Origin: Rhodanobacter sp.
GTDB taxonomy: Bacteria; Pseudomonadota; Gammaproteobacteria; Xanthomonadales; Rhodanobacteraceae
Length of the DNA: 64,000 nt
Assembly: GCA_004298045.1 (NCBI GenBank)
Contig: SCRM01000003.1
Span: forward strand, 1-64,000
Reading direction: 5' to 3'
The notes beneath the pieces were generated by a model, which worked only from the letters and a program-made list of their open reading frames with translations, did not search any database and was not told the DNA's origin. Both the position numbers and the translations under genes were made by a program. Positions 14,215 to 64,000 of this stretch are shown here, piece after piece (within the stretch, counting starts at the first letter, position 1; every line of letters begins with the position of its first letter).

Positions 14215-15860
14215 CCCCGCTCGCCGTCGTGCCGCGCCTGCTGCGCGTCGCCGCCGTGCTGCTGCGCTACCGGCTCGACGAGCTGGTCGATGCCACCCAT
14301 CTGTTCCGCCCGTTGAAACTGCTGCGCCCGCTGCTGGGTGCGCCCAGCGTCGACGTGCGGCCGCTCGCGCGCGGTGCGCGCCTGCGCCTCGCGCTGACCG
14401 AGCTGGGGCCGATCTTCGTCAAGGCCGGGCAGGTGCTGTCCACCCGTCGCGACCTGGTGCCGGCCGACATCGCCGACGAGCTGGCGCTGCTGCAGGATCA
14501 GGTGCCGCCCTTCCCCGGCGCGGAGGCGCGCGCCATCGTCGAGCGCGAGCTCAAGGCGTCGGTGCCCACCCTGTACGCGAGCTTCGACGAGCGCGCGCTT
14601 GCCTCCGCCTCGATCGCGCAGGTGCACGCGGCGACGCTGCCGGACGGCCGCGCGGTGGTGGTGAAGGTGCTGCGCCCCGGCATCGACGCCAAGATCGCGC
14701 GCGACGTCGGCCTGCTGCGCTCGCTCGGTGCGCTGGCGCAGCGCTGGCACCCGGAGGCCGACAAGATCCGCCCGCTGGATGTCGTCGCCGAGATCGAGAA
14801 GATGCTCGAGAACGAGCTCGATCTGCAGCGCGAGGGCGCCAGCGCGAACCTCCTGCGGCGCAACTTCGCCGACGGCAAGGATCTCTACGTACCCGAGGTG
14901 CACTGGGAACTCACCGCCGCCCGCGTGCTCACGCTGGAGCGCGTGTACGGCGTCTCCTGCGACGACATCGCCGCGATCGACGCCGCCGGCATCGATCGCA
15001 AGATGCTGGCACGCAAGGGCGTGCGGGTGTTCTACGAGCAGGTGTTCCGCGACAACTTTTTCCACGCCGACGCGCACCCCGGCAACATCTGGATCGACCC
15101 GTCGCGGATCGCCGAGCCGCGCTTCATCGCGCTCGATTTCGGCATCATGGGTTCGCTGCCGGAGGCCGACCAGTACTGGCTGGCGCAGAACTTCATCGCG
15201 CTGTTCGAACGCGACTACGCGCGCATCGCGAAGCTGCACGTCGATGCCGGCTGGATGCCGCGCACGGTGCGGCTGGACGAGCTGGAAGCCGCGGTGCGCA
15301 CCGTGTGCGAGCCGTATTTCACCCGTCCGCTGGCGCAAATCTCGCTGGCCGAACTGGTGGTGAAGCTGTTCCAGACCGCACGCCGGTTCCAGCTGACGCT
15401 GCAGCCACAATTGATCCTGCTGCAGAAGACCCTGCTCAACATCGAGGGCGTCGGCCGCCTGCTCGACCCGGAGATCGACATCTGGGCGGTGGCGCACCCG
15501 GTGCTGAAACGCATCCTGCGCGAGCGCTACAGCCCGCTGCGCACCTTTGGCGAAGTGCGCAAGCGCCTGCCCGAATGGTTCCACATGGCACCGCGCCTGC
15601 CGGGCCTGGTGCACGACGCGCTGGAACAGGCCGCACGCGGCGAGCAGCATTTGCTGGCCGACGTCGAGACCCTCGGCCACCAGAGGAAACTGGTGCGCAA
15701 CCTGATGCGCATGCTCGCCTGCGGCCTGTTCGGCGCGACGATGATCGTCTGCGCCACGCTGCTGTGGGCGCTGGCGCCGCAACACGGTTACTGGTTGCCG
15801 CTAGCCATGGCCAGCCTCGGGCTGCTGGCCTTCGTCTACGGCTGGTCGCACCGCAACTGA
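14211..15860 (+). CDS. ubiB: Ubiquinone biosynthesis regulatory protein kinase-like UbiB
   Basis: 549 residues from a GTG start inside the ubiJ stop overlap. The ABC1/ADCK/UbiB family features are all present: the invariant KxGQ motif ([16 protein letters not shown], about residue 73), the nucleotide-binding Lys ([11 protein letters not shown]), the ExD-type motif ([11 protein letters not shown]), and the catalytic and metal segments [14 protein letters not shown] and [11 protein letters not shown]. Two hydrophobic helices at the C-terminus (about 500-545) should anchor it in the inner membrane. It is an ATPase-like protein needed for ubiquinone assembly. Paired with ubiJ here and functionally with ubiK at 24658. 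Confidence 0.95.
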
Positions 15861-15899
15861 GTTCGTCGGCGCCACCGCAAGCCCATACTCGCAGGAGTC

Positions 15900-15945
15900 C
15901 GTTCGCGGGCGATGCTCTTCGCAAAAAGCCCATCGTCCGCGAGCG
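15900..15945. repeat. Long imperfect hairpin between ubiB and truC
   Basis: CGTTCGCGGGCGATGCTC (15900-15917) pairs with GCCCATCGTCCGCGAGCG (15928-15945) over 18 bp with 4 mismatches and a 10-base loop. There is no T-tract after it on the plus strand, so it looks more like a repeat or transcript-stabilising structure than a terminator. An upstream truC frame start (15912) would fall inside it. Confidence 0.6.
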
Positions 15946-46785: not shown

Positions 46786-46801
46786 TTGACAGCGGTGTCA
46801 A
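46786..46801. promoter_or_regulatory. LacI-family operator in front of the glucosaminide locus
   Basis: TTGACAGCGGTGTCAA has perfect 6-bp arms (TTGACA/TGTCAA) around GCGG, the TGACANCGNTGTCA type of site used by LacI-family repressors of sugar genes in Xanthomonadales and Caulobacter. The left arm is also a perfect -35 hexamer. It lies 41 bp before the glucokinase start, and the LacI gene is the last gene of the operon. No second copy was found inside the cluster. Confidence 0.75.
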
Positions 46802-46842
46802 CGGCTCGCAAGCTGAATATGACGGGAAACCAAGGGGAAGCA

Positions 46843-47907
46843 ATGAGCGCGGCAGGCAACCATCCTGCGTCTCGACCGACGGCGGCGGCGACGCCGTTTC
46901 TGGCCACCGACATCGGCGGCACGCATGCCCGCGTGGCGTTGCTGCGGGCGGCGCCCAGCACGGCGCTGGGAGTGGAAACACTGGCCTACGAGGTGCTGGC
47001 TTGCGCGGATTTCCGCGGGCTGGGTGAACTCTTGCAGCGCTTCGTGCAAACCGCCGCGACCACGCCGGTGAAGCACTGTGTGCTGGCCTGTGCTGGCCAG
47101 GTGGTGGGCGACGAAGTGTTGAACGACAACGCCGCGTGGCCGATCCGCCTGAGTGCGGTGCGCCAGGCGCTGGCGTTGGACGAGCTTGCGGTACTGAACG
47201 ATTTCGAGGCGCTGGGGCACGCGATCGGCGGACGCCGGATCGACGCCGCGCGCCTGCTGTGCGGGCCGGATACGCAAACTACCGGCCCGGTGCTGGTGAT
47301 CGGCCCGGGCACCGGGTTGGGCGCCGCGGCCTGCCTCCCGGTTGCCGATGGCTACCGCGTGCTGACCACCGAGGCCGGGCAGATGGATTTCGCGCCGCAG
47401 TCGCTGCGCGAGCGCGCGGTGCTGGCGCAACTGGCGCCCGACGGTGGTTACCTTCCGTGGGAACGGGTGCTGTCCGGCCCTGGCTTGCTCGCCACCTACC
47501 GCGCGCTGTGCGCCAGCGACGGGCGCTCGCCGCAACTGACCACGCCAGAGGCGGTAACGGCGGCCGCGACCCGCCGCACCGACGTCCATGCAGTACAAGC
47601 CGTGGACGTGTTTTGCGCGGCGCTGGGCAGCTTCAGCGGCAACCTCGCGATGACCTTCATGGCCTTCGGCGGCATCTACCTCGCCGGCGGCTTTTTGCAC
47701 TTGATGTTCGATCTGCTCCAGCCCAGCGCGTTTGCCGAGCGTTTCCTGCACGCACGCAGCGTGCGGCCCCTGCTTGAGCGGATGCCGGTGCGGGTGGTTT
47801 CGCACGGCCACCTCGGCGTACTCGGCGCAGCGCGCTGGTACCTGCGCCAATGCGCGCTGCGACCCGGCGCCCAACCCATGACCCCGGCTACCGGAGCGCC
47901 AGCGTGA
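46843..47907 (+). CDS. glk: Glucokinase-family sugar kinase
   Basis: 354 residues from ATG 46843, which has AAGGGGAAG 3-5 bp upstream; ATG 46819 is the alternative. The ATP phosphate-binding loop is FLATDIGGTHARVALL, the catalytic Asp is in LNDFEALGHAIGG, and GPGTGLGAA and GGIYLAGG close the active site. This is the Glk (PF02685) family rather than a ROK kinase. It normally phosphorylates glucose; here, at the head of a probable glucosaminide operon, glucosamine is an attractive alternative substrate (inference). It is 145 bp from the TonB receptor gene. Confidence 0.88.
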   Translation: MSAAGNHPASRPTAAATPFLATDIGGTHARVALLRAAPSTALGVETLAYEVLACADFRGLGELLQRFVQTAATTPVKHCVLACAGQVVGDEVLNDNAAWPIRLSAVRQALALDELAVLNDFEALGHAIGGRRIDAARLLCGPDTQTTGPVLVIGPGTGLGAAACLPVADGYRVLTTEAGQMDFAPQSLRERAVLAQLAPDGGYLPWERVLSGPGLLATYRALCASDGRSPQLTTPEAVTAAATRRTDVHAVQAVDVFCAALGSFSGNLAMTFMAFGGIYLAGGFLHLMFDLLQPSAFAERFLHARSVRPLLERMPVRVVSHGHLGVLGAARWYLRQCALRPGAQPMTPATGAPA

Positions 47908-48052
47908 ACGCGCCGCGTAGCCACCGCCCGGGCCCGACCACTGCGGCACGCAAGCCGTGGCCGCCCCCGTCGCGTTTACCGCCCCCTTTGCACGCACCCA
48001 AACCCGGCCAGTCCAGCCCGACTCAGCCGACACTCATCGAGAGGTAAGGCCC

Positions 48053-51000
48053 ATGTCCACCGATCAACGCAAACGCCCACTTGCGTTTGCCATTTCCATC
48101 GCGCTGTTTGCCGTTGCTGCGGCCGCCACCGCGGCGACGACTCCCACCGATACCACCGACACCCCGGTTGCCAGCGCCCAGGACTCCACCGCGCCAACCA
48201 CTGCCACCACGCCGCCGGCGACCAAGAAAAACCAGCCGGCGAATGCGAAAAACGCGGTGAACTTGTCCGTCGTGAACGTGGTGGGCGTGCGCGCTTCGCA
48301 GATGCGCGCCATCGACCTGAAACGCGAGGCACCGAACATCCAGGACAGCATCACCGCCGAAAGCATCGGCCAGCTGCCGGACGTAACCATCACCGACGCC
48401 CTGCAGCGCATCACCGGCGTGCAGATCAACCGCGATGCCGGCGTCGGCACCTCGGTCGATGTCCGTGGCCTGCCCGAAGTGGGCACCATGCTGAACGGCG
48501 AAGCGTTCATCACCGCCGACCAGATCGACTCGCAGCAGCCCGACTTCACCATGCTGCCGTCAACGCTGTTCCACGGCGTGGATGTCATCAAATCGCCCTC
48601 CGCCAGCACCACCGATGCCGGCATCAGCGGCTCGCTCAACCTGCACACTTTCCGGCCGTGGGATTTGCCCAGCGGCTTTACCTACAGCTACTCGGCCGAC
48701 GGCGAGTACGGGCGCAGCACGCGCAAATGGGGGCCGGAGGCAAACGGCCTGATCTCGTACAACGCGAACGGGCGTTGGGGCCTCTTGATTTCGGCGGATG
48801 TCTCCAACACCACGCGCATGAACGCCAATGAAGGCCTCGACCAGTACGGCGTGGTGTTCAACGGCGAAAACGCCGCCAGCGCCGACAGCTACAACGGTTT
48901 CCTGACACCATGGAATGGCGCGCCGATCCCCTCGCAGATCGTGCAGAACGCCGACGGCAGCGTGGACGTGAACGGCGACGGCAAATCCAACGGTGTGTTC
49001 ATGGGCAGCCAGAACATCGCCCTGTACGACATCACCACCCAACGCAAACGCAAATCCGGCAACATGTCGTTCCAGGCAGACCTGGGCAGCGGCTTCACGC
49101 TGACCAGCGATTTCTTCTACGCGCGCCAGAACCAGCTCGACCGCAACGTCGGCATCCAGTTCAACTCCACCAACTGGCAGGGCGCCACCTACGTGCCGCT
49201 GCAATCGCGCAACACCGGCGCACCGGCGCTCGGCGCCTACGGCACCCCGGATCCAGGCTGGGATGGCATGCAGATCTTCACCACCCAGCGCTACGAGAAA
49301 TGGCCGGGCGACGTGGAATCGTTCTCGCAAGTGACGCGCAAAGGCTCCACCGCGAAGAACTTCAACCTGCAACTGGACTTCGACAACGGCGGCGACTTCA
49401 CCGGCAGCCTGCGCGGCATCCGCGACACCGCCTACCAGTCGAACGTGGAAACCGACCTCAACATCTCCGACTCCGACGGCGCACTGTGGGGCAATGTACT
49501 GATGGATGGCGTCGATCCGAACTCGGTGCCGCCGGGCACGTTCGTCTTCCCCTCGCAACTGGGCGGCAACCGCGTATTCAACGCCAACGGCGTTCCCCAG
49601 AACACCATCCCGATCATCGCCAACCTCGGGAGCCGTCATCTGACGGTAAGCATGCCGCAAACGCTGGCCAACCACTTTGCGGACCCCAACGGCTGGACCA
49701 TGAAGACGCTGGAATCCGGTGGGGACTATGACCGCAGCGTGGGCCTCAGCGCCTTGCGCTTCGACGGCCACTACGATTTCGAGAACGGCATCAAGCTCGA
49801 TTTCGGCGTACGCAACTCGATCCGCAGCGCCGACAACATCGGCTTTACCCTGGTCACCCCGGTGTACGGCGGCATGGGCGCCAGCGACCCGAACGGCTGC
49901 CTGGTGCGCTACGTCGGCGCCGACGTGGTGCTCGACAGCGGCGCCTGCACCGCCGGCAACGACATCGGCTACTTCCGCGCCGGCCCGATCTCGGCACTGC
50001 AACTGGGCGCCACCCCGCCGCCGCTGTCCAGCAACTGGAAGCAATACAACAACCTGCTCGGCTCCGGCATCACGTTCTGGGCGGTCGATCCGCACGCGCT
50101 GGACAACCCCGAGTCGTACTGGCACTCGCTGTATCCGCTGAGCCAGCGGCAGGCGACGCCGGGCCGCACCTGGGCGGTCTGGATGAAGGAAAGCTCGGCC
50201 TACCTGCAGGCTGATTTCAGCGGCACCCTGGGCAACATGCCGTACAGCGGCAACGTCGGCATGCGCGTGATCCGCACCCACCTCGACGTCACCCAGCACC
50301 TGACCGGCGCGCCCGGTTCGTACGGTACCGAGCCGGTGGATGCCGGCACCGAGCTCACCCAGCGGCGCTACAAGGACTACCTGCCGGCCGCGAACTTCGC
50401 GCTCGACCTCACCGACAGCCTGAAGCTGCGCCTGGCGTATTCCAAGAACATGATGCCGCTGAACCTCGGCACCTGGGGCGGCGGGCTGCAACTCGCCTAC
50501 TCGCTGGTGGAAACCCCGCAAGGCCCATTGTTCCGCGTGGCGCAAGGCAACTCCACCGGCAACCCGAACCTCAACCCGTGGCGCTCCACCAACTACGGCG
50601 CCTCGCTGGAGTGGTACATCAACCCGACCAGCATGGTCAGCCTTGCGTTGTTCCGCATCAGCGTGGACAGCTTCATCAAGAACGGCAGCGTCATCAATTG
50701 CACGTTGCCCGACGAGGACGGCGTGGTGCGCAATCATTGCATCACCATCACCGAACCGGTGCAGGGCAGCGGCAACTCCATCCACGGCGCCGAGTTTGAT
50801 TACCGCCAGGGCTTCACTTTCCTGCCCGGCATCCTGTCCAAGACCGGCATCGAGGTGAACGGCACCTACGCGCCGAGCAACTCGGGCGAGAAGGACCTCG
50901 CCGGCCACGAGATTCCGTTCCAGGACAACTCCACGCGTTCGGGCAACGTCATCCTCTGGTACCAGGACGATCGCCTGCAGGCGCGCGTGGCCTACAACTA

Positions 51001-51244
51001 CCGTTCGCGGCGTGCGGTGTCCGACTCGGTCGGCGGCATCACCGGACTGGAGATGTACGAGGCGCCGCAGAAGTACCTGGACGCCTCGGTGTCGTACAAG
51101 ATCAACAAGTACGCGCAGGTGTTCGTGGACGGCACCAACCTCACCAACGAGGACCAGCACTACTACCTGGTGTGGCCCGACCAGCCGGCGCATTCGACGT
51201 TCTCCGAACGCATGTTCATGGTGGGCATCCGCGGCCAGTGGTAA
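48053..51244 (+). CDS. TonB-dependent receptor, Xanthomonas type, for a carbohydrate
   Basis: 1063 residues from ATG 48053 with AGAGGTAAGG upstream. Signal peptide MSTDQRKRPLAFAISIALFA ending near ATAA; then a Thr/Pro/Ala-rich linker (25-75). A TonB-box-like LSVVNVVGVRASQ precedes the plug (QDSITAESIGQLPDVTITDA, then LQRITGVQINRDAG). A long 22-strand type barrel ends with the aromatic terminus MFMVGIRGQW. It should bind an oligosaccharide at the outer membrane and import it with TonB energy. Gene order with GH2 and LacI argues for a glucosamine-containing glycan. A large hairpin follows the stop. Confidence 0.94.
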   Translation: MSTDQRKRPLAFAISIALFAVAAAATAATTPTDTTDTPVASAQDSTAPTTATTPPATKKNQPANAKNAVNLSVVNVVGVRASQMRAIDLKREAPNIQDSITAESIGQLPDVTITDALQRITGVQINRDAGVGTSVDVRGLPEVGTMLNGEAFITADQIDSQQPDFTMLPSTLFHGVDVIKSPSASTTDAGISGSLNLHTFRPWDLPSGFTYSYSADGEYGRSTRKWGPEANGLISYNANGRWGLLISADVSNTTRMNANEGLDQYGVVFNGENAASADSYNGFLTPWNGAPIPSQIVQNADGSVDVNGDGKSNGVFMGSQNIALYDITTQRKRKSGNMSFQADLGSGFTLTSDFFYARQNQLDRNVGIQFNSTNWQGATYVPLQSRNTGAPALGAYGTPDPGWDGMQIFTTQRYEKWPGDVESFSQVTRKGSTAKNFNLQLDFDNGGDFTGSLRGIRDTAYQSNVETDLNISDSDGALWGNVLMDGVDPNSVPPGTFVFPSQLGGNRVFNANGVPQNTIPIIANLGSRHLTVSMPQTLANHFADPNGWTMKTLESGGDYDRSVGLSALRFDGHYDFENGIKLDFGVRNSIRSADNIGFTLVTPVYGGMGASDPNGCLVRYVGADVVLDSGACTAGNDIGYFRAGPISALQLGATPPPLSSNWKQYNNLLGSGITFWAVDPHALDNPESYWHSLYPLSQRQATPGRTWAVWMKESSAYLQADFSGTLGNMPYSGNVGMRVIRTHLDVTQHLTGAPGSYGTEPVDAGTELTQRRYKDYLPAANFALDLTDSLKLRLAYSKNMMPLNLGTWGGGLQLAYSLVETPQGPLFRVAQGNSTGNPNLNPWRSTNYGASLEWYINPTSMVSLALFRISVDSFIKNGSVINCTLPDEDGVVRNHCITITEPVQGSGNSIHGAEFDYRQGFTFLPGILSKTGIEVNGTYAPSNSGEKDLAGHEIPFQDNSTRSGNVILWYQDDRLQARVAYNYRSRRAVSDSVGGITGLEMYEAPQKYLDASVSYKINKYAQVFVDGTNLTNEDQHYYLVWPDQPAHSTFSERMFMVGIRGQW

Positions 51245-51252
51245 CCGCCGTG

Positions 51253-51280
51253 GCGGCGGCGGGCTCGCGCCCGCCGCCGC
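51253..51280 (+). terminator. Strong GC hairpin between receptor and permease genes
   Basis: GCGGCGGCGGGC (51253-51264) and GCCCGCCGCCGC (51269-51280) are perfect 12-bp arms around TCGC, 8 bp after the receptor stop. There is no T-run, so it is more likely an mRNA-processing or partial-termination element that keeps receptor mRNA above the downstream genes. Confidence 0.65.
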
Positions 51281-51327
51281 GCTGACCGGCGGCACGCCGC
51301 CGTCCGCATTCACTCACCAGGATCGTC

Positions 51328-52707
51328 ATGGCTGATACCCAACCCGCCGCCGCAACCGGTTTTCGCCGCTCGATCGGACTGTTCTCCGGCACCGCCATCA
51401 ACATGACCCAGATGTGCGGCATCGGGCCGTTCATCACCATCCCGATCATGGTGGCGACGATGGGCGGGCCGCAGGCGGTGATCGGCTGGATTGCCGGCGC
51501 GATCCTCGCCATGGCCGATGGCCTGGTGTGGGCCGAGCTGGGCGCGGCGATGCCGGGCTCGGGCGGCACCTACGTGTATTTGCGCGAGGCGTTCCAGTAC
51601 CGCACCGGCAAGCTGATGCCGTTTTTGTTCATCTGGACCGTACTGCTGACCATTCCGCTGCTGATGTCCACCGGCATCATCGGCATGGTCGAGTACCTCG
51701 GCTTTTTCTTCCCGCATCTGGGGTGGTGGCAGGTGCATCTCGTCAGCCTCGCCGCCACCGCGCTGGTCACCTGGATGCTGTACCGGCGGATCGAATCCAT
51801 CCGCGCGATCACTATCGCGCTGTGGGTCATCATGCTGGTGTCGGTGATCGGCGTGACCGCCGCCGGGTTTGCGGATTTCAACCCGGCATATGCGTTCGAT
51901 TACCCGCCCGGCGCGTTCGGCAGCCAGTTTTTCGTCGGCCTCGGCGCCGGGCTCATCATCGGCATCTACGACTATCTCGGTTACTTCACCACCGCCTACA
52001 TGGGCGACGAGCTGCGCAACCCCGGCCGCACGATGCCGGGCTCGATCATCATCTCAGTGATCGCGATGATGGTGGTCTATCTCGCGCTCAACGTGAGCGT
52101 ACTCGGCGTGGCGCCGTGGCAGGAGATCGCGCAATCGAAATCGGTGGCCTCGCTGGTGGTGGAGCACAGCTGGGGGCATCTCGCCGCCGCCGGGATGACG
52201 GTGCTGATCATCGTCACCGCGTTCGCCTCGGTGTTTGCCGGCCTCCTGGGCGGTTCGCGCGTGCCCTACCAGGCGGCGCACGAAAAGGTGTTTTTGTCGG
52301 TGTTCGGCAAGCTGCACGCCCGGCACGGGTTTCCGCACGTGGCGCTCTTGACGATGGGCGTGGTGACCGCGATCGGCACGTTCTTCGATCTGGCCGAAGT
52401 GATCAACATGCTGCTGGCGGCCACCATCCTGGTGCAGTCGCTGGCGCAGATCGCGGCACTGGTCGTGCTGCGCAAGCGCCAGCCGGGGCTGAAGCGGCCC
52501 TACCGGCAATGGCTCTACCCGCTGCCGTGCGTGGTCGCGCTGGCCGGCTGGGTGTACGTCTACGCGTCGGCCTCCCGGCTGTCGCTGATCCTCTCCGGCA
52601 CGTGGATCGTCGCCGGCCTCGTCGTGTTTGCGCTGTGGGCGCGACACAACCGTTCGTGGCCCTTCGCGCCAGTGGAAATCCGCGAAGCCTATTTGCAGAA
52701 GGAGTGA
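51328..52707 (+). CDS. APC-superfamily permease in the glucosaminide locus
   Basis: 459 residues with about 12 transmembrane helices. APC features: IGLFSGTAINMTQMCGIGPF (broken TM1 with the Gly-rich substrate loop), ADGLVWAELGAAMPGSGGTY (TM2), and YMGDELRNPGRTMPGSIIIS. Family members normally carry amino acids, polyamines or other organic cations. Its place between a TonB receptor and an exo-glucosaminidase suggests import of a cationic amino sugar such as glucosamine (inference). Only 4 bp separate its stop from the GH2 ATG, and the GH2 ribosome site lies inside this gene's end. Confidence 0.9.
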   Translation: MADTQPAAATGFRRSIGLFSGTAINMTQMCGIGPFITIPIMVATMGGPQAVIGWIAGAILAMADGLVWAELGAAMPGSGGTYVYLREAFQYRTGKLMPFLFIWTVLLTIPLLMSTGIIGMVEYLGFFFPHLGWWQVHLVSLAATALVTWMLYRRIESIRAITIALWVIMLVSVIGVTAAGFADFNPAYAFDYPPGAFGSQFFVGLGAGLIIGIYDYLGYFTTAYMGDELRNPGRTMPGSIIISVIAMMVVYLALNVSVLGVAPWQEIAQSKSVASLVVEHSWGHLAAAGMTVLIIVTAFASVFAGLLGGSRVPYQAAHEKVFLSVFGKLHARHGFPHVALLTMGVVTAIGTFFDLAEVINMLLAATILVQSLAQIAALVVLRKRQPGLKRPYRQWLYPLPCVVALAGWVYVYASASRLSLILSGTWIVAGLVVFALWARHNRSWPFAPVEIREAYLQKE

Positions 52708-52711
52708 AACC

Positions 52712-55426
52712 ATGCAGTTGTCCCCGCTCCACATGCTTGGCTGGCTGGCGGCGTTCGCGCTCGCGCTGCCGGCGGGCGCGCAAACCCCGTACGCGGCCAC
52801 CACAGTCGGCGGCGCCGGTACACGCACTGCCGTGACGCACTGGCAGATCCAGTCCACCGCCAAGGCGCCGTTCGCCGGCACGGACGTCTCTTCCCCCGCG
52901 TTCAAGCCCGCGGCGTGGTATCCGGTGAGCGGGCGTGCCACGGTCATGGCCGGGCTGTTGGAGAACGGCCTGTATCCCGACCTGTTCCACAGCGACAACC
53001 TGCGCGCGGTGCAGTCGCCCGACGCCAACGGCAAGGGCTTTGTGATCCCGTGGTGGTACCGCAGCACGTTCACGCTTGGTGCCCAGGCCGGCCTGCACAC
53101 TCTGCTGCGTGCCAACGGCCTGATCGCCAGCGCCGACGTGTGGGTAAACGGCCAGCAAGTGGCCAACCACGCCGACCTGGCCGGGGCCTACCCGGTGTAC
53201 GAGATCGACGTGACCCACCTCGTGCACGCCGGCAACAACGCCATCGCCCTGCGCGTGCATCCGGCCGACCCGCGCAACAGCCTGTCGATCAGCTGGGTGG
53301 ATTGGAACCCGACCCCGCCGGACAACAACATGGGCCCGTGGCGCGGCGTGGACATCGTGCGCACCGGCGCGGTCGAGCTGCGCTTTGCGCACGTGTCGCC
53401 CAACCTCTCGCTGCCCGACCTGGCGCACGCGGATCTGACGGTGAGCGTCGAGGCGCGCAACCTCGATGCCGTCGCCCGCCGCACGACGATTGCCGGCACC
53501 GTCGCCGGAGTGAAACTCACGCGCACGCTGACGCTTGCGCCGGGGCAGACGCAGACCGTCACCTTCACCCCGCAAACCGATCCGGGCCTGGCGCTCGATC
53601 ATCCGCGCGTGTGGTGGCCCTATGCGATGGGCGCACAGCCGATGTACCAGCTTGCGCTCACGGCCGACGTCGATGGTGCCACCTCGGATACCGCGCAGGC
53701 GAGTTTCGGCATCCGCAGCGTCAGCGCGCACCTCACCGCTGACGGCTACCAGCAGTTCGTCGTCAACGGCAAGCCGCTCCTGATCCGCGGCGGCGGCTGG
53801 GCACCGGACATGTTCCTGCGCGACAACCCGGCGCGCATGGCGGCGGAGTTTGCCTACGTGCGCAACCTCGGGCTCAATACCATCCGGCTGGAAGGCAAGC
53901 TCGAAAACACGCACTTCTACGACCTCGCCGACCGCGAGGGCGTGCTGATCCTCCCCGGCTGGGAGTGCTGCGACAAGTGGGAATCCGCGGCCAAAACCGG
54001 CGGCGCGCCGTGGGATGCGGCCGACACCAAGGTGGCCGCTGCGTCGATGGCCAGCGAAGCACGGCTGCTGCGCAACCATCCGTCGGTGATCGGCTTCCTG
54101 ATCGGCAGTGACCATGCGCCGCCGCCGACGGTGGCGAAGATGTACGTGGACACGCTCCACGCCGAAGGCTGGAACCTGCCGATCGTCGCCGCTGCCGCCA
54201 AGGAAGGCACCGCCGAGACCGGGCCGTCGGGCATGAAGATGGACGGCCCGTACGCATGGATCCCGCCGAGCTACTGGTACGCGGACCAGCTCGGCGGTGC
54301 CTTCGGGTTCGACTCCGAAGTCGGCGCCGGCGCCACCATCCCGCGGCTGGAGGACGTGCAGGCGATGCTCTCGCCACAGGAACAGGAAGCGCTGTGGAAA
54401 TATCCGCAGACGCGGCAGTATCACGCTGCGGAGTCGTGGTCGCCGTTCTCCCGCCTCACGGCGTTCGACCACGCGCTGGCGCAGCGCTACGGCGCACCGA
54501 AAAACCTCGCCGACTACGTGGCCAAGGCGCAGCTCGACAACTACGCCAACACGCGCGCGCAGTTCGAGGCGTTCAATGCGCACATGAACGCCACCAAGCC
54601 CGCCACCGGCGTGATCTACTGGATGCTCAACAACGCCTGGCCCTCGCTGCACTGGCACCTGTACAACTACGCACTGAACCCGGCCGGCGCGTATTTCGGC
54701 GCCAAAAAGGCCAATGAGCCGGTGCATATCCAGTACAGCTATGACACCCGCGGCATCGTGCTGGTGAACCACACGCTCGCCGCGCAGCACCACCTGTCGG
54801 CGCGCATCCGCGTGCGCAATCTCGACGGCAGCGTGCCCTTCGACCGCCACCTGCAAGGTCTCGACCTGGCCGGCAATCACGCCCAACAAGTGCTGGCGCT
54901 GCCCGTGCTCCAGCACCTGTCGCCCACGTATTTCGTCGAGCTGGAACTCGCCGCCGCCGATGGCACGCCGATCAGCCGCAACGTCTACTGGCTGTCGACC
55001 CGGCCCGACGTGCTCGACTGGGCGAAATCCAACTGGTACCTGACGCCCCTCACCCAGTACGCCGATCTGACCGCGCTGCAAACGCTGCCCACCGCAACGA
55101 GCAGCGTGCATGCGAACGTGCAGCGCGAGGGTAACGACGCGCTCGTCCGCGTGACGCTCAGCCTGCCGGCCACGGCCAAATCCGCGGCGCTGTTCCAGCA
55201 CCTGGCGATCAAGCAGGCCGGCGGCGCGCGCGTGCTGCCGCTCACGTGGAGCGACAATGACGTCACGCTGTGGCCCGGCGAAGCGGTAACGTTGACCGCG
55301 CGTTACGCGGCCACCGCCGCCAACGCGCCGGTGGTCGTGGTGGATGGGTGGAACGCCCCCACTCACGAGATTCCGGTAACCGCATCCACCGCCAACAAGG
55401 CAGCCAAGGCAACCCGGCATCCATGA
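52712..55426 (+). CDS. Secreted GH2 exo-beta-D-glucosaminidase-like enzyme
   Basis: 904 residues from ATG 52712 (AAGGAG at ideal spacing). Signal peptide MQLSPLHMLGWLAAFALALP to AGAQ. The order is a GH2 sugar-binding domain (WYRSTFTLGAQAGLHTLLRA), an immunoglobulin-like domain, a TIM barrel from about 355, and a late beta domain (LTWSDNDVTLWPGEAVTLTA). In place of the usual GH2 Asn-Glu acid/base pair it has FLIGSDHAPPP (Asp467), with a nucleophile candidate Glu536 in GFDSEVGAG. A Ser-Asp acid/base with a Glu nucleophile about 70 residues later is the hallmark of exo-beta-D-glucosaminidases. It should release glucosamine from chitosan oligomers in the periplasm. Beta-mannosidase is the main alternative reading. 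Confidence 0.85.
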   Translation: MQLSPLHMLGWLAAFALALPAGAQTPYAATTVGGAGTRTAVTHWQIQSTAKAPFAGTDVSSPAFKPAAWYPVSGRATVMAGLLENGLYPDLFHSDNLRAVQSPDANGKGFVIPWWYRSTFTLGAQAGLHTLLRANGLIASADVWVNGQQVANHADLAGAYPVYEIDVTHLVHAGNNAIALRVHPADPRNSLSISWVDWNPTPPDNNMGPWRGVDIVRTGAVELRFAHVSPNLSLPDLAHADLTVSVEARNLDAVARRTTIAGTVAGVKLTRTLTLAPGQTQTVTFTPQTDPGLALDHPRVWWPYAMGAQPMYQLALTADVDGATSDTAQASFGIRSVSAHLTADGYQQFVVNGKPLLIRGGGWAPDMFLRDNPARMAAEFAYVRNLGLNTIRLEGKLENTHFYDLADREGVLILPGWECCDKWESAAKTGGAPWDAADTKVAAASMASEARLLRNHPSVIGFLIGSDHAPPPTVAKMYVDTLHAEGWNLPIVAAAAKEGTAETGPSGMKMDGPYAWIPPSYWYADQLGGAFGFDSEVGAGATIPRLEDVQAMLSPQEQEALWKYPQTRQYHAAESWSPFSRLTAFDHALAQRYGAPKNLADYVAKAQLDNYANTRAQFEAFNAHMNATKPATGVIYWMLNNAWPSLHWHLYNYALNPAGAYFGAKKANEPVHIQYSYDTRGIVLVNHTLAAQHHLSARIRVRNLDGSVPFDRHLQGLDLAGNHAQQVLALPVLQHLSPTYFVELELAAADGTPISRNVYWLSTRPDVLDWAKSNWYLTPLTQYADLTALQTLPTATSSVHANVQREGNDALVRVTLSLPATAKSAALFQHLAIKQAGGARVLPLTWSDNDVTLWPGEAVTLTARYAATAANAPVVVVDGWNAPTHEIPVTASTANKAAKATRHP

Positions 55427-56436
55427 CCCGTGCCAACATCGACGACGTCGCCCGCACCGCGGGCGTATCCACCAAAACCGTATCGCGAGTGCTGAACAAC
55501 GAGCCCAACGTGCGCGACGCCATGCGCGAGCGCGTACTGGCCGCGGTCGCCACGCTGCATTACCGCCCGCTCACCTCGGCGCGCAGCCTCGCCACCAACC
55601 GCTCGTTCATGATCGGCCTGCTCTACGACAACCTCTCGCCGAGCTACATCATGGAGGTGCAGGCCGGCGTGCTTGCCGCGTGCGAAGCGCAGCGCTACAG
55701 CATGATGGTGCAGCCCCTGGTATCCACCGCCGCGGATTTCGTCGAGCGCGTCGAGGACATCCTCTCGCGCCACCGGCCGGATGGCCTGATCCTCACGCCG
55801 CCGATCACCGACCACCCGCAGCTGCTCGCACGCCTGCGCGCCATGGCACTGCCGTTCGCCTCGATCGCCCCACACCACCCGGGGCACTGCATCGGCGCGA
55901 TGCTGCGCGAACGCGAGGCGGCGGCGGCGATGGTGGCGCATCTGGTCGCGCTTGGGCACCGGCGCATCGCGCACATCCTCGGCGACCCCGAGCACGGCGC
56001 CGGCGTGTGGCGCCTGGCCGGCTTTCGCGACGGCCTGCACGCGGCGCGGCTCAAGGAAAACCCGGCGTGGATGGTTCCCGGCCGGTTCTCGTTCGAGTCC
56101 GGCGTGGAGGCGATGCGCAAGCTGCTTGCGTTGCCGGCCAAACGGCGTCCCACCGCCGTGTTCGCGGCCGACGACGACATGGCCGTGGGCGCGATCTGGG
56201 CCGCGGCCGAAGCCGGCGTGGCCGTGCCCGGCGACATCTCCATCTGCGGTTTCGATGACACCGCCATCGCCACCCAGGTTTGGCCGCCCCTCACCACCAT
56301 CCACCAACCCGTGCGCGACATGGGCCGGCGCGCCACCGAGGAACTGCTGCGTTGCATCCTGGGCAAAGGCGACGCCACCATGGTCGACGTCGGTTACGAG
56401 CTGCGCATCCGCGCGTCCACCGCTGCGCCGGCGTAG
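55423..56436 (+). CDS. LacI-family repressor of the glucosaminide operon
   Basis: 337 residues from ATG 55423, overlapping the GH2 stop (ATGA). The helix-turn-helix is NIDDVARTAGVSTKTVSRVL with the hinge helix YRPLTSARSLATNRS. The periplasmic-binding-like domain runs FMIGLLYDNLSPSYIMEVQA to SICGFDDTAIATQVWPPLTT. It most likely binds the operator at 46786-46801 and is relieved by a sugar or sugar phosphate from the pathway. The stop codon TAG is the start of a dispersed repeat (56433). Confidence 0.92.
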   Translation: MTRANIDDVARTAGVSTKTVSRVLNNEPNVRDAMRERVLAAVATLHYRPLTSARSLATNRSFMIGLLYDNLSPSYIMEVQAGVLAACEAQRYSMMVQPLVSTAADFVERVEDILSRHRPDGLILTPPITDHPQLLARLRAMALPFASIAPHHPGHCIGAMLREREAAAAMVAHLVALGHRRIAHILGDPEHGAGVWRLAGFRDGLHAARLKENPAWMVPGRFSFESGVEAMRKLLALPAKRRPTAVFAADDDMAVGAIWAAAEAGVAVPGDISICGFDDTAIATQVWPPLTTIHQPVRDMGRRATEELLRCILGKGDATMVDVGYELRIRASTAAPA

Positions 56437-56516: not shown

Positions 56517-57335
56517 ATGCCCAGCCAATTCCATTTCATCTCCGGCATGCCGCGTGCCGGCAGTACCTTGCTGGCGGCGGTACTCAACCAGAACCCGCGC
56601 TTTCGCGCCGGCATGACCAGTCCGCTGGCCGACATCCTCGGCGTGGCGCTTGCCGAGGCCAGCGGCAAGAACGATTTCGCGCATGCGGTGACCGACGCAC
56701 AGCGCACCGCGATGCTGCGCGGGCTGGTGCAGAGCTTTTATGCCGACGCACCGGCGGACGGCGTGGTGTTCGACACCAGCCGCCTGTGGTGCAGCCGCCT
56801 GCCGCTCTTGGCCGCCCTGTTTCCGCAGGCCAAGGTCATTGCCTGCGTGCGCCAGTTGCCGTGGGTGCTGGACAGCATGGAGCGCCTGGTGCGCCAGCAG
56901 CCGGTGAACGTGAGCAAGGTGTTCCGCTACGACACCAACACCACCGTGTATTCGCGGGTGGAAGCACTGACCGACCCGCGCGGCATGGTGGGCTTCGGCT
57001 TCCAGGCCACCAAGGACGCGTTCTACGGCCAGTACGCCCCGGGCCACCTGCTGCTGCTCACCTACGAAAGCCTGGTGCGCGACCCGGAGGCGGCCATGCG
57101 CGCGGTGTACCAGTTCCTCGGCGAGCCATGGTTCGCGCACGATTTCGACCACCTCGCCTACGCCGCCGACGAGTTCGACGCCCGCGTCGGCCTGCCCGGC
57201 CTGCACACCGTGCGGCCCAAGCTCGCCGCGGTGGAACGCGCCACGGTGTTGCCGCGCGAAATCTTTGCGCGCTTCCTGCATGAATCGTTCTGGATGGATC
57301 CGAAAAACAACGTCAGCGGGATCCCGGTGATCTGA
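56517..57335 (+). CDS. Sulfotransferase family protein
   Basis: 272 residues from ATG 56517 with GAGGAG upstream. The PAPS 5'-phosphosulfate-binding loop is FISGMPRAGSTLLAAVLNQN, and VIACVRQLPWVLDSMERLVR provides the 3'-phosphate region. LLLTYESLVRDPEAAMRAVY is typical of the Sulfotransfer family. The acceptor is unknown (glycan, lipid or protein). It follows the LacI gene on the same strand but is separated by repeat copy D, so membership of the glucosaminide operon is uncertain. Confidence 0.82.
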   Translation: MPSQFHFISGMPRAGSTLLAAVLNQNPRFRAGMTSPLADILGVALAEASGKNDFAHAVTDAQRTAMLRGLVQSFYADAPADGVVFDTSRLWCSRLPLLAALFPQAKVIACVRQLPWVLDSMERLVRQQPVNVSKVFRYDTNTTVYSRVEALTDPRGMVGFGFQATKDAFYGQYAPGHLLLLTYESLVRDPEAAMRAVYQFLGEPWFAHDFDHLAYAADEFDARVGLPGLHTVRPKLAAVERATVLPREIFARFLHESFWMDPKNNVSGIPVI

Positions 57336-60020: not shown

Positions 60021-60848
60021 TCAACCAGACGTTGCCGCAAACCCCTTCACCAGCTTGTTGAACAGGAGGCCATAGGCAATGGCGAGCGGGATGGCGACGA
60101 TCGCACCGGCGGCCATCAGCGACTGCCAGAAATAGATGTCGCCGCGGATCAGCTCGATCGGCACGCCGGCGCTGACCGTGCGGGCGGCGGTGGAGCTGAC
60201 GAACGAGGCCGCGTAGATGTAGTCGCTGAGCGAGAGCGCAAAGGCGAACACCACGCAGGTGGCAATGCCCGGCATCGCCAGCGGCAGCGAGACGCGACGA
60301 AACGCCTGCCAGCGCGAACAACCATCGGTCATCGCCGCATCTTCCAGGTCGCGCGGGATCGACTTGAAGAACCCGAGCAGCAGCCAGGTGCAGAACGGCA
60401 CCGTGATCGTCGGGTACACCAGCACCAACGCCCACACCGTGTTGGCCGCGTGCGCAAAGCTGATGAGCTGGTAGAGCGGGATGAACAGCAGCGTCGGCGG
60501 AATCAGGTACACCAGAAACACCGCAATGCCCGAGCGCTCGCCCCAGCGCCCGACCAGCCGCGCCAGGCTGTACGCCGCCGGCACTGCCAGCACCAGCGTG
60601 ATGACCACCACCAGCACGCCGATGAACAGTGAGTTCCACAGAAACGTCGGGTAATGCGTGCTGGTGAAGAGATACTCGATGTGCTTGAGCGTCGGCGGCA
60701 GGTTGTAGAGAAACGGATTGTTGTCGACGTTGTAGAGATCGGAATCCTCCTTGAACGCGGTGATCACCATCCACGCCACGGGAAACACCGAGAACAACGC
60801 GAACAGGAACAAACCCAGATAAAAACCCGATTTGCGTACGTAGCGCAT
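60021..60848 (-). CDS. Carbohydrate ABC transporter permease (MalG-like)
   Basis: 275 residues, six transmembrane helices (FYLGLFLFALFSVFPVAWMV first). The EAA loop that contacts the ATPase is EDAAMTDGCSRWQAFRRVSL. It is the second inner-membrane subunit of a type I sugar importer, 9 bp after the first permease gene. The C-terminus GLLFNKLVKGFAATSG is typical of MalG-like proteins that end near GxxKG. Substrate unknown. Confidence 0.93.
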   Translation of the reverse strand: MRYVRKSGFYLGLFLFALFSVFPVAWMVITAFKEDSDLYNVDNNPFLYNLPPTLKHIEYLFTSTHYPTFLWNSLFIGVLVVVITLVLAVPAAYSLARLVGRWGERSGIAVFLVYLIPPTLLFIPLYQLISFAHAANTVWALVLVYPTITVPFCTWLLLGFFKSIPRDLEDAAMTDGCSRWQAFRRVSLPLAMPGIATCVVFAFALSLSDYIYAASFVSSTAARTVSAGVPIELIRGDIYFWQSLMAAGAIVAIPLAIAYGLLFNKLVKGFAATSG

Positions 60849-60857
60849 GGCCGTCTC

Positions 60858-61796
60858 CTAGCGCGTCTGCGAGCGGTAAGCCGCACGCAGCGCCCAGATC
60901 GCACCGGCCAGCAGCACCGGAAACATGAACAATGCAATCGCCGCGCCCTGACTGAGCGCGCCGCCCTCGATGCCTTTTTCATACGCCCAGAACGGCAGAA
61001 GCTGGGTGGCGTAGCCTGGCCCGCCGCGCGTGGTGATCGCCACGATCGCCATGTCGCCAAACACTAGCAGCGCCGCAAACATCGTCGCCACCACCAAGAT
61101 CGGAAACATCGCCGGGATGCTGATCTGGAACAGCGTGCGGAAAATGCCGGCGCCGTCCACCTGCGCTTGTTCGAGGATATCGGCCGGAATCGATACCCGC
61201 CCGGCCAGCACGATCACCGTCGCCAAGGGCAGGATGCGCCACACGTTGATGAGGGTGATCGAGGCGAGCCCGAGCCACTCCTGACCGTAGTAGTAGAGGT
61301 GCATCTGCGGTCCCCAGATCGTGCCGGGGCCAAGCAAACCCAGGTGCCGGAACAGCCAGTCGATCGGACTGAACTGCGAATCGAGCAGCCACAGCCAGTT
61401 GACCGCGGCGAGCGACACCGGCATTGCCCACGGCAGGATGATGAGGATCTGGAACAGCCACTTGCCGCGGAAATCGCGGGCCAGGAGTTCCGACTCGATG
61501 GTGGCGAAGATCAGGATCAGCACCACCGTGGCCACGGTGACGATGACGCTGTTGCGCAGGCCCATCAGAAACTCGGGCTCGTGCACCGCGGCCACGTAGT
61601 TCTGGAAACCGACGAACCCATGCACGCCGGGCGCGCCCACGGTGGCGCTCGCCATGCTGAGCGCGATGGCGATGAAAAACGGCACCGCCACCAGCAGCAC
61701 GATATAGAGCAGTGCCGGCGACAGCATCAGCACGCCCAGCAGGCCCGGCCGGTCGCCCACGCCCAGCCGCGCGTCCGCCTGCGGCACCGCGTTCAT
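60858..61796 (-). CDS. Carbohydrate ABC transporter permease (MalF/UgpA-like)
   Basis: 312 residues with six or more helices (LMLSPALLYIVLLVAVPFFI). The EAA loop is EQAQVDGAGIFRTLFQISIP. GPQMHLYYYGQEWLGLAS is a long periplasmic-side segment. It pairs with the MalG-like subunit. Its start overlaps the ATPase stop (ATGA at 61793-61796), so all three membrane-complex genes are tightly coupled. Confidence 0.93.
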   Translation of the reverse strand: MNAVPQADARLGVGDRPGLLGVLMLSPALLYIVLLVAVPFFIAIALSMASATVGAPGVHGFVGFQNYVAAVHEPEFLMGLRNSVIVTVATVVLILIFATIESELLARDFRGKWLFQILIILPWAMPVSLAAVNWLWLLDSQFSPIDWLFRHLGLLGPGTIWGPQMHLYYYGQEWLGLASITLINVWRILPLATVIVLAGRVSIPADILEQAQVDGAGIFRTLFQISIPAMFPILVVATMFAALLVFGDMAIVAITTRGGPGYATQLLPFWAYEKGIEGGALSQGAAIALFMFPVLLAGAIWALRAAYRSQTR

Positions 61797-62818
61797 GCCG
61801 TCACCCGCAAACCGGTCTTGGCGTCGAACAGGTGCAGCTCGGCGCGCGGCACGGTGAACACGTGGTCGCTGCCCACTTCGAGCGTGGTCACCACCTGCGG
61901 CGACACGTGCGCGATGAATTTCTGCGCGGCTTCGCCCGCGCCCTGCACCGCGTAGATCTGCCAGGTGGAGCCAAGAAACTCCAGCTCGACGATGCGCGCG
62001 GTCACCGCGAACTGGTCGCTCGCCACCGGCGTGCCCGCCCGGCTGACGCCAATGCCTTCGGGGCGAAAGCCGATGATCTTGCCTTCGGCCGCGATCAGGT
62101 TCATCGGCGGGCTGCCGAGGAAGCCGGCGACAAAGGTATCCGCGGGCGCACCGTACAGTTCCTTGGGCGTGCCGACCTGGCGCACGCGACCAGCTTTCAT
62201 CACCGCGATGCGGTCGCCCATGCCGAGCGCTTCGAGCTGATCGTGGGTGACATACACGGTGGTGACCTTGGTGCGGTCATGCAGTTGCCGCAGCTCGCTG
62301 CGCGCCATCGCGCGCACCTGCGCGTCGAGCGAGCTGAGCGGCTCGTCGAACACGTACAGCGCGGGGTCGCGCACCAGCGCACGGGCCAGCGCCACTTTCT
62401 GCTTTTCGCCGCCGGAAAGCCGCACCGGGCTGCGTTCAAGCAGCGCGGTGATGCCCATCGTCTGCGCCGCCTTGGCTACCCGCGCGTCGCGCTCGGCCTT
62501 GGGCACGCCGCGCGCCTTGAGCGGGAAGGCGATGTTCTTCGCCACCGACATGTTGGGGTAGAGCGCGTAGCTCTGGAACACCATCGACACGTTGCGCGCG
62601 CGCGGCGGCAGATGGGTCACATCCTGGTCGCCAATCAGCACTTGCCCGATGGTCGGCGTTTCCAGCCCGGCGATCATGCGCATCGTCGTGCTCTTGCCGC
62701 AGCCGGAGGGCCCGAGAATGGCGAGAAACTCGCCATCGGCCACCGTGAGGTCGATGCCGTCCACCGCGTGTGCGGCGCCGTAATGTTTGTGGATACCGCG
62801 TAATTCCAGCGTTGCCAT
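61793..62818 (-). CDS. Sugar ABC transporter ATPase (MalK/UgpC/MsmK-like)
   Basis: 341 residues from ATG 62818. Walker A GPSGCGKST, Q-loop MVFQSYALYPNMSV, signature LSGGEKQKVALARALV, Walker B LYVFDEPLSSLD and the switch His in VYVTHDQLEAL are all intact. A C-terminal TOBE/OB regulatory domain (about 235-341, FRPEGIGVSRAG) marks the carbohydrate CUT1 group. It powers import by the two permeases encoded downstream. The signature has Glu-Lys in place of the common Gln-Arg. Confidence 0.94.
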   Translation of the reverse strand: MATLELRGIHKHYGAAHAVDGIDLTVADGEFLAILGPSGCGKSTTMRMIAGLETPTIGQVLIGDQDVTHLPPRARNVSMVFQSYALYPNMSVAKNIAFPLKARGVPKAERDARVAKAAQTMGITALLERSPVRLSGGEKQKVALARALVRDPALYVFDEPLSSLDAQVRAMARSELRQLHDRTKVTTVYVTHDQLEALGMGDRIAVMKAGRVRQVGTPKELYGAPADTFVAGFLGSPPMNLIAAEGKIIGFRPEGIGVSRAGTPVASDQFAVTARIVELEFLGSTWQIYAVQGAGEAAQKFIAHVSPQVVTTLEVGSDHVFTVPRAELHLFDAKTGLRVTA

Positions 62819-62963: not shown

Positions 62964-64000
62964 CTACTTCGCCGGTGCCGCCGGGCAGCCGACGTAACCG
63001 TTCGCCTTCCATTTGCTGACGATGGTGCCGACCTGCGCGGCCGTGTCCTTCACCGCCTGCGCGGGCGTTTTCACCCCGCGTACCGCCTGCGCCATCATCG
63101 TGGTCAGCAGATGCGTGTTGTAAACCTCGCTCACCGCCGGGTTGCCGTCGCCGGGATAGCCCGGCCACGCCGTCCACTTCGAGGCGTCACGCAACACCGC
63201 GAGCTTGTTCGGCGGGTTGGAGTGGAACGGATCCACATCCAGCCAGCCGCCCTTGGCCCACAGTTGCGGCACGGTCTTGGGGAACGCCGGGAAGTTGTAC
63301 AGCGCGCTGGCATAGGTGGCCTGGCTGTAGTTGGCGGCAAGGTCGAGCATGAACTTCTTCGCCGCCTGGACGCGCTGCGGGTCCTTCACGTATTTCGGCA
63401 TCACGTAGATGAACCACACGTGCGAGGTCTGATGCACCTCGCCAGTCGGGCCCTTGAGGCCGGGGCTGAAACCGGTGTCGTCCGCATTGGCCTTGTTCGA
63501 CGCCTGCGCCGTGCGATAGAACGAGATCGAGTTCTGGATGTACGACAGCTGCCCGGACACGAAACCCTGGTTGTTCGACGCCGGGTTCCACGCAAATACC
63601 TGCGGGGTCTCCGTCTTCTTGAACAGGTCCACCTGGTACTGCACCGCCTTCACCGTCTGCGGCGAATCCAGCGCCACGTTGCCGCACTTGTCGAACACGC
63701 GGCCACCGAACGACCAGATCAGCGAGCGCGCAAAGAATTCCGAGTCGAGCTCCGGCGACATGCCGACGCCCACCGGGATGCCGGTCTTCTGGAAAATCTT
63801 CTCGCCGCCGGTGATGAGATCCGCATACGTGTGCGGCCCGGTCGGATACCCGGCCTGCTTCCACAGCGACACGCGGTAATCGCCCGGATCGGGCACCCAG
63901 CCGTGGCAGAACCCATACCACTCGTTTTTCACCGACAGGTAGGACTGCGTCTTGCACACCGCCTCTTGCGGGCCAAACGCCTTTTCCGCTGCCGCGTTCA
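62964..64000 (-). CDS. ABC transporter extracellular sugar-binding protein (5' end outside window)
   Basis: At least 345 codons, open to the window edge; the signal peptide and N-terminal lobe lie outside. Family 1 solute-binding features: GYPTGPHTYADLITGGEKIF, DSEFFARSLIWSFGGRVFDK, and VHQTSHVWFIYVMPKYVKDP. It should bind the sugar in the periplasm and deliver it to the permease pair. It is first in the operon as seen here. An in-frame GTG near 63959 is not the real start, since upstream codons (AAAEKAFGPQEA) read as protein. Confidence 0.9.
   Translation of the reverse strand, partial: NAAAEKAFGPQEAVCKTQSYLSVKNEWYGFCHGWVPDPGDYRVSLWKQAGYPTGPHTYADLITGGEKIFQKTGIPVGVGMSPELDSEFFARSLIWSFGGRVFDKCGNVALDSPQTVKAVQYQVDLFKKTETPQVFAWNPASNNQGFVSGQLSYIQNSISFYRTAQASNKANADDTGFSPGLKGPTGEVHQTSHVWFIYVMPKYVKDPQRVQAAKKFMLDLAANYSQATYASALYNFPAFPKTVPQLWAKGGWLDVDPFHSNPPNKLAVLRDASKWTAWPGYPGDGNPAVSEVYNTHLLTTMMAQAVRGVKTPAQAVKDTAAQVGTIVSKWKANGYVGCPAAPAK

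Follow-up and report, generated by a model that had tools for sequence, protein, structure and literature searches.

A putative chitosan-oligomer operon of Rhodanobacter with a candidate APC-family glucosamine importer

The 64,000-nucleotide stretch of Rhodanobacter DNA analysed here (the window) contains what is probably a dedicated, LacI-controlled operon for the use of chitosan oligomers, or of partly deacetylated chitin, in which a permease of the APC family would import glucosamine. As judged from its sequence relatives, its signature residues and its neighbours, the permease is most likely an amino-sugar importer with glucosamine as its substrate. A similar proposal had come from a sequence-only reading of the locus, and the analyses described below support it.

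The host is a soil bacterium of the Rhodanobacter group; transposon fitness libraries exist for Rhodanobacter and Dyella.

Table 1 Features of the operon in the window
Feature	Position	Strand	Details
Palindromic operator TTGACAGCGGTGTCAA	46786-46801	+	41 bp upstream of kinase start
Glucokinase-family kinase	46843-47907	+	354 aa; PF02685, 293 bits
TonB-dependent receptor, Xanthomonas-Caulobacter type	48053-51244	+	1063 aa; TIGR01782 TonB-Xanth-Caul, 487.5 (cut-off 310)
APC-family permease	51328-52707	+	459 aa; PF13520, 141.2 bits (cut-off 27)
GH2, CsxA-type	52712-55426	+	904 aa; Ig_GlcNase PF18368, 92.9 bits (cut-off 26.3)
LacI-family regulator	55423-56436	+	337 aa; PF00356, 67 bits (cut-off 27)
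Sulfotransferase-like gene	56517-57335	+	272 aa; PF13469; last in conserved block

Gene calls and family profiles bear out the operator and the five co-directional genes that the sequence-only reading had described, as well as the tight packing that it had reported at the last two junctions: 4 bp separate the stop of the APC gene from the start of the GH2 gene, and the GH2 and LacI genes overlap by 4 bp. Missing from its gene list were the sulfotransferase-like gene and the GH20 gene that most relatives carry. It had also suggested a search for the same gene order in related genomes, and that order is kept in all 31 relatives that we fetched, with the six operon genes co-directional in 32 of 32 loci (the window counted) and the sulfotransferase-like gene directly after the LacI gene in 31 of 31. 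A GH20 gene lies between the kinase and receptor genes in 22 of the 32 loci; the operon in the window has none. In the window and in all 31 relatives, the conserved block thus unites a TonB receptor, a glycosidase, an inner-membrane carrier, a kinase and a regulator, the make-up of a TonB carbohydrate utilisation locus. Orthologues of the permease (78-89%) occur in 32 of 299 genomes of the order, and orthologues of the GH2 enzyme in the same 32. The sulfotransferase-like gene follows this distribution exactly, with orthologues (72-82%) in the 32 locus-bearing genomes and other matches reaching only 43-55%; this restriction rules out that it is a chance neighbour.

The operator upstream of the kinase gene is beyond chance, both by its rarity and by its conservation. 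Allowing at most one mismatch, TTGACAGCGGTGTCAA has one match in the window (0.03 expected from shuffles), which is also its single match in the 3.26 Mb assembly; the pattern read backwards has four there. Upstream of the kinase gene, the 16-mer recurs with at most one mismatch in 25 of the 31 relatives and with two mismatches in one more (L043), and a separate search located it in L041. In L037, the place to be compared falls at the edge of the fetched stretch, and in 3 of the 31 (L038, L039 and L047) the 16-mer was not found upstream of the kinase gene. Presumably, the site is bound by the LacI regulator of the operon itself.

The GH2 enzyme is, by its scores and catalytic residues, predicted to be an exo-β-D-glucosaminidase of the CsxA type. 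It scores 798 bits against CsxA and 86 bits against the best β-mannosidase, so that the clustering with β-mannosidases that had been named as a possible refutation of the glucosaminidase reading is not observed. Indeed, Asp467 (in IGSD) and Glu536, which had been singled out as glucosaminidase-like from the sequence, align with D469 and E541 of CsxA, the positions that are substituted in CsxA chains in the PDB, and the GSD motif and catalytic Glu are present in all 32 operon copies. Together, scores and motif rule out a β-mannosidase or a β-galactosidase. The similarity to CsxA (PDB 2VZS, from Amycolatopsis orientalis) extends over residues 21-892 and includes the Ig_GlcNase domain; unlike CsxA, the 904-aa candidate, whose N-terminus by eye resembles a signal peptide, belongs to a Gram-negative host and a TonB operon, and the CsxA chain has 1032 aa.

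The kinase passes the PRK12408 glucokinase model (319.5, cut-off 240). It departs from the E. coli type in that Gln180 (TEAGQ) replaces the His of the EGGH motif of E. coli Glk, a residue with a role in glucose binding, and E-x-G-Q is found in 32 of 32 operon kinases. (Note that the genome has three PF02685 genes, which rules out the operon kinase as its sole glucokinase; the kinase of a second GH20 locus is likewise E-x-G-Q, and the third glucokinase keeps EGGH as in E. coli.) We regard the operon kinase as a candidate glucosamine kinase.

The permease has PF13520/PF00324 in common with the amino-acid permeases of APC family 2.A.3 (GkApcT, xCT, LAT and AdiC), resembles them in sequence over most of its chain and passes the PF13520 cut-off; it falls below the cut-off in all 19 NCBIfam models listed, that of FrlA included. 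It differs from family 2.A.3 in forming its own clade, separated from 14 control APCs at 100/100 in a tree of 40 clade rows and 14 of our 20 controls, in its sugar-gene neighbours, and in two signature residues, Pro34 and Asp215, which all 40 clade rows share and each of the 14 controls lacks. These lie in the motifs GIGPF (31-35) and YDYLGY (214-219). As an excerpt of PMC5803215 describes for GkApcT, the carbonyls of Phe231, Ala232 and Ile234 hold the amine of the substrate, and the amides of Thr43 and Gly44 its carboxylate. By motif and alignments, Asp215 occupies the position of Ala232, and Pro34 directly follows the equivalent of Gly44. Amino-acid transporters of the APC family are marked by a small residue at the TM6 substrate position (Ala232 in GkApcT) and, behind the second Gly of the TM1 GxG motif, by an aliphatic one; the permease has neither. 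It is highly improbable that the protein is an ordinary amino-acid or polyamine permease whose location in the operon is incidental: its PF13520 membership would fit, and its solved relatives, except MJ0609 (named uncharacterized), are named amino-acid or polyamine transporters, but the clamp residues for amino acids are changed in 40 of 40, the permease and the GH2 enzyme share one set of 32 host genomes among the 299, and sugar genes repeatedly accompany the clade in several phyla but none of the 20 control loci. Scarcely plausible is the import of a conjugate of sugar and amino acid, such as GlcNAc-asparagine from N-glycans. FrlA, the fructoselysine/psicoselysine transporter, is a precedent, since it too belongs to the APC family and its substrate bears a sugar, and a GH92 gene adjoins one clade APC (L163), with GH125 and GH92 genes near a member of the 36-41% class (L105). 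However, the permease scores 87 bits against the FrlA model (cut-off 800), the substrate of FrlA retains its amino-acid part and Pro34 together with Ile32 would alter the carboxylate site; moreover, the conserved operon genes include no glycosylasparaginase or deglycase, and the operon enzymes would yield free amino sugars. We regard the permease as a candidate glucosamine importer.

The clade, with at least 560 relatives in one scan, has sugar-related neighbours in other bacteria as well. Among 53 distant clade loci, 42 have a ROK gene within 5.5 kb (by a profile derived from 11 ROK proteins encoded at clade loci), 17 a CsxA-like GH2 gene and 4 a NagB-like gene, with at least one of the three at 43, compared with 0 of 20 control APC loci, which were hand-picked rather than random, from five genomes of the window's family, and differ in taxa from the 53. 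The tested neighbours are absent from the other 10 loci, five of which belong to Ktedonobacteria, where gene calling is poor. An independent Pfam scan of the closest neighbours covered 123 proteins at 31 of the 53 loci, after removal of near-duplicates and Ktedonobacteria, and gave 39 ROK and 7 Ig_GlcNase matches; for 80 neighbours of the 20 controls, the best 25 of 94 families contain no ROK or GH2 family and are topped by amino-acid permease families. The NagB-like genes are those of four mycobacterial loci, one of which (L175) was scored against NCBIfam and fell below the cut-off. In Amycolatopsis, Streptomyces and Actinomadura, clade APCs have CsxA-like GH2 genes nearby, in gene arrangements that differ from that of the operon; by motif, 8 of 14 distant GH2 neighbours (Amycolatopsis) carry a WSDNEP variant, which may indicate a different specificity, and 6 (Streptomyces and Actinomadura) carry GSD. 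We lean slightly towards the view that the entire clade, with members in Pseudomonadota, Actinomycetota, Chloroflexota and Verrucomicrobiota, exchanged amino acids for sugars as its substrates through a rebuilt clamp (GxGPF in TM1, YDY in TM6). Within it, one class would serve glucosamine alongside CsxA-type GH2, a second N-acetylglucosamine alongside GH20 and a ROK kinase, and a third a hexose or disaccharide alongside GH35, a PfkB kinase and a GH4 phospho-glycosidase.

Elsewhere in the window's genome, NagA scores above its cut-off. Near it is encoded a protein with two SIS domains that is NagB-II-like but scores below the cut-off of that model. A PF01182 match was rejected as NagB and read as 6-phosphogluconolactonase because it lies between genes that by eye are zwf and edd. 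No PF07786 (NagX-type) gene was found in this genome, which is 95.9% complete. Since NagA and the NagB-II-like protein are present and PF07786 is absent, a direct importer of glucosamine would fill a gap. In the NagX and NagP route, according to an excerpt of PMC9007349, glucosamine is acetylated before uptake; that route serves the same end, bringing periplasmic glucosamine into the cell, but requires a transacetylase, which by PF07786 is absent here, where we propose direct import. The operon likewise shares a LacI regulator (NagR there), a kinase and a TonB receptor with the Xanthomonas NagR/NagQ N-acetylglucosamine regulons, which an excerpt of PMC5343134 describes without an APC protein or a CsxA-type GH2; a likely counterpart of those regulons lies elsewhere in the genome (G000:C13).

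That the permease instead imports N-acetylglucosamine, or both amino sugars, with glucosamine entering otherwise, is unlikely but deserves weight. The GH20 gene in 22 of 32 loci would fit such a substrate equally well, and clade members of the 51-53% class lie with a ROK kinase, a TonB receptor and GH20 (by Pfam in L095, by eye in L093). In 3 of 3 of that class, the APC gene has a PF07786 match no more than about 8 kb away, so that acetylation by the NagX route, as excerpted from PMC9007349, may there be the first step for glucosamine. Against this, the operon in the window lacks GH20, and its invariant enzyme is the predicted glucosaminidase; the genome's other GH20 locus has its own MFS carrier (though one that passes the gluP model and not NagP) and no PF07786 is present; and, among family genomes, 10 of the 32 that carry the locus and 34 of the 44 that lack it have strong PF07786 matches, as raw counts that ignore kinship.

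In the reading that we favour, glucosamine import, the TonB receptor would carry oligomers across the outer membrane and the exported GH2 enzyme would release glucosamine from their non-reducing end, with GH20 in most relatives releasing N-acetylglucosamine as well. Free glucosamine would then pass the inner membrane through the APC permease, the kinase would convert it to glucosamine-6-phosphate, and the NagB-II-like deaminase would convert that to fructose-6-phosphate.

The open-licence literature that we searched yielded no description of an importer of glucosamine from the APC family. If the proposal is true, a dedicated carrier from a family of amino-acid permeases would be an alternative to the acetylation-first, non-PTS route for glucosamine (NagX, as excerpted from PMC9007349), and the annotation of a large APC clade would need correction. 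The clade would also offer a natural example of how an amino-acid carrier of the APC fold turns to sugars, marked by a signature at two sites.

The sequence-only reading had proposed an operon for the use of chitosan oligomers, in which an APC permease would import glucosamine. All five genes were confirmed, in one direction and at the coordinates tabulated here, as were the tight final junctions (4 bp between the APC and GH2 genes, and a 4-bp overlap between the GH2 and LacI genes). Pfam and NCBIfam placed the products in the glucokinase family, the TonB receptors of the Xanthomonas-Caulobacter type, AA_permease_2, GH2 and LacI, and found the exo-beta-D-glucosaminidase Ig-fold domain in the GH2 enzyme. 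When the possibility of a beta-mannosidase was checked with phmmer, the GH2 enzyme scored 798 bits to the known exo-beta-D-glucosaminidase CsxA (PDB 2VZS) and 86 bits to the best beta-mannosidase. The two residues singled out earlier, D467 and E536, align with D469 and E541 of CsxA, precisely the positions at which two PDB chains of CsxA deviate from wild type, and the GSD motif and the Glu are kept in 32/32 operon copies.

Coordinates of the operon and of other features (window numbering unless a locus is named)
Feature	Coordinates	Strand	Remarks
Operator	46786-46801	+	
Kinase	46843-47907	+	
TonB receptor	48053-51244	+	
APC permease	51328-52707	+	
GH2 enzyme	52712-55426	+	
LacI regulator	55423-56436	+	
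Sulfotransferase-like gene	56517-57335	+	PF13469
Sugar-type ABC transporter genes	60021-62818, 62964-63998	-	By eye; downstream of operon; two permeases, an ATPase and one gene running past the window edge
Sulfotransferase-family gene, L115 (G000:C13:52000-71900, window's genome)	14672-15412		PF17784, 208 bits; immediately after GH20
GH92 protein, L163 (Solihabitans)	11619-15917		1432 aa, with F5/8 type C domain; after clade APC

Orthologues of the GH2 enzyme (65-73% identity, the window itself excluded) occur in 32 of 299 genomes of the order, all of one family. In about 20 kb fetched around each of the 31 other loci, the suggested search for the same gene order found kinase, TonB receptor, APC, GH2 and LacI with order and strand kept in 31/31, the kinase of L037 being truncated by the edge of its stretch. 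Among the 299 genomes searched, APC orthologues (78-89%) are confined to the same 32, which also hold the orthologues (72-82%) of a sulfotransferase-like gene that follows LacI in 32/32 loci at a gap of 12 to 621 bp. A GH20 gene lies between kinase and receptor in 22/32 loci, the window being among the 10 without. Neighbouring genes overlap or lie at most 20 bp apart at the receptor/APC junction in 9/32 loci, at APC/GH2 in 17/32 and at GH2/LacI in 30/32.

The operator TTGACAGCGGTGTCAA has a single match in the window (0.03 expected) and, at up to one mismatch, a single and exact match in the 3.26-Mb assembly; because the reversed pattern matches four times in that assembly, the genome-wide count is not proof by itself. 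At this threshold the site stands at no second operon of the genome, which points to a dedicated regulator. Of the 31 relatives, 25 carry the operator upstream of the kinase with no more than one mismatch, one has it with two, and it was seen in one further; it was not found there in L038, L039 and L047, and in one relative the position lies beyond the stretch edge. The best match before the receptor has three to five mismatches, which fits a single transcription unit.

Other matches to the sulfotransferase-like protein share 43-55% identity. Next to such relatives, 8 of 14 loci fetched (L257-L261, L265-L267) encode a very large protein, of roughly 1,700 to 2,600 aa or longer and in some cases truncated by the stretch edge, with a small gene in between in L261; L262 holds fragments of one nearby. 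No large-protein gene was seen near the relative in L256, L263, L264 or L269 of these 14, and L268 gave no gene call. By eye the large proteins look surface or autotransporter-like, and the two genes are candidate protein-sulfation pairs.

Relatives of the APC permease fall into three classes: operon orthologues, a class at 51-53% identity and a class at 36-41%. In the second (three genomes, L093-L095), a divergently transcribed ROK regulator, a ROK kinase (4-bp overlap) and a TonB receptor adjoin the permease; Pfam, run on L094 and L095, assigned ROK to regulator and kinase, the TonB receptor, and GH20 in L095, the GH20 of L093 being assigned by eye. As a PF07786 match also lies within about 8 kb in 3/3, these are probably GlcNAc loci with a NagX-type step. 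In the third class (L096-L107), 12 loci fetched of the places listed and read by eye, with Pfam on L102 and L105, a TonB receptor, a PfkB kinase and GH4 adjoin the permease in 12/12 and GH35 is present in 9/12, in the order TonB receptor-(GH35)-APC-PfkB-GH4; such permeases are probably sugar or disaccharide importers of the same clade, paired with a phospho-glycosidase. GH125 and GH92 come next in line, as Pfam showed for L105 and inspection by eye for some other loci.

A scan of GTDB genomes gave at least 560 APC relatives. Of the best 80 loci, 27 (L124-L150) belong to Rhodanobacteraceae, Pseudoxanthomonas and an unplaced Lysobacterales bin (only APC and GH2 were seen in L134, and L133 stops at a contig end), and 53 come from other groups: Betaproteobacteria, Ktedonobacteria, Actinomycetota and a single Pedosphaera. 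Within 5.5 kb, these 53 have ROK neighbours in 42 loci, a CsxA-like GH2 in 17, a NagB-like protein in 4 and any of these in 43, the ROK profile being built from clade loci; none of the three was found beside 20 control APC genes (from G000, the window's genome, and G283, G039, G095 and G285). Pfam scans, which do not depend on that profile, covered 123 neighbouring proteins (31 of the 53 loci) and, for the 20 controls, 80 neighbours, the control result being read from the first 25 of 94 families. The NagB-like protein of L175 scores 294 bits as glucosamine-6-phosphate deaminase versus 57 as 6-phosphogluconolactonase, below curated cut-offs. Motifs were read in 14 of the 17 GH2 neighbours: GSD in Streptomyces and Actinomadura (6/6 read), and a WSDNEP variant in Amycolatopsis, including A. 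orientalis (L179; 8/8 read).

The 40 clade members are set apart at 100/100 in a 54-row tree, which comprises 28 core members, 3 and 9 from the two other classes, and 14 of the 20 controls; several controls sit on long branches, whose joins may be false. Pro34 and Asp215 are present in 40/40 clade rows; at these positions the controls carry Ile/Leu, apart from one gap, and Ala/Ser/Thr, respectively. Position 32 is Ala in the 51-53% class and Ile/Val in the others. Operon permeases read GIGPF (31/32) or GVGPF (1/32), and YDYLGY (32/32). According to PMC5803215, the amides of Thr43/Gly44 in GkApcT contact the carboxylate, the carbonyls of Phe231/Ala232/Ile234 contact the amine, and changing Asp237 abolishes function. 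By motif, Asp215 corresponds to Ala232 and Phe220 to Asp237, position 220 being Asn in 23/28 core members. Judged from this comparison, the clade permeases may grip the carboxylate less firmly and may have acquired an acidic side chain at the amine site.

Elsewhere in the genome, contig C2 encodes NagA (334 bits, cut-off 226) and a NagB-II-like protein (343, cut-off 430) beside a GntR-type gene (by eye), and a second amino-sugar locus on contig C13 comprises LacI and a TonB receptor (both by eye), an MFS carrier (above the gluP cut-off; NagP 353 versus a cut-off of 625), a glucokinase-family kinase and GH20. The C13 kinase has E-x-G-Q, as do 32/32 operon kinases (TEAGQ 30, TESGQ 1, TEVGQ 1); EGGH is instead found in the genome's third glucokinase and in E. 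coli Glk, and the His of this motif has a role in glucose binding. No PF07786 gene was found in the window's genome. Among the matches listed for 76 family genomes (G285 and G289, absent from the match list, counted as match-free), PF07786, a family broader than NagX, occurs at E <=1e-9 in 10/32 operon-bearing versus 34/44 operon-free genomes (Fisher 1.2e-4, kinship ignored), and with all matches in 17/32 versus 37/44 (0.005, kinship ignored), a hint, no more, that it is rarer where the operon is present.

Two papers describe the NagX route (PMC9007349) and NagQ/NagR (PMC5343134). In the open-licence papers searched, we found no report of an APC-family glucosamine importer. According to PMC3924187, 7/11 families of the APC superfamily deal with amino acids and derivatives, and probable sugar carriers are already known in its SSS family; sugars are therefore not new to the superfamily and, as far as we found, would be new only to family 2.A.3. 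The finding is real, with stronger support than the earlier reading could have had; its novelty likely lies in the permease clade rather than in the operon as such.
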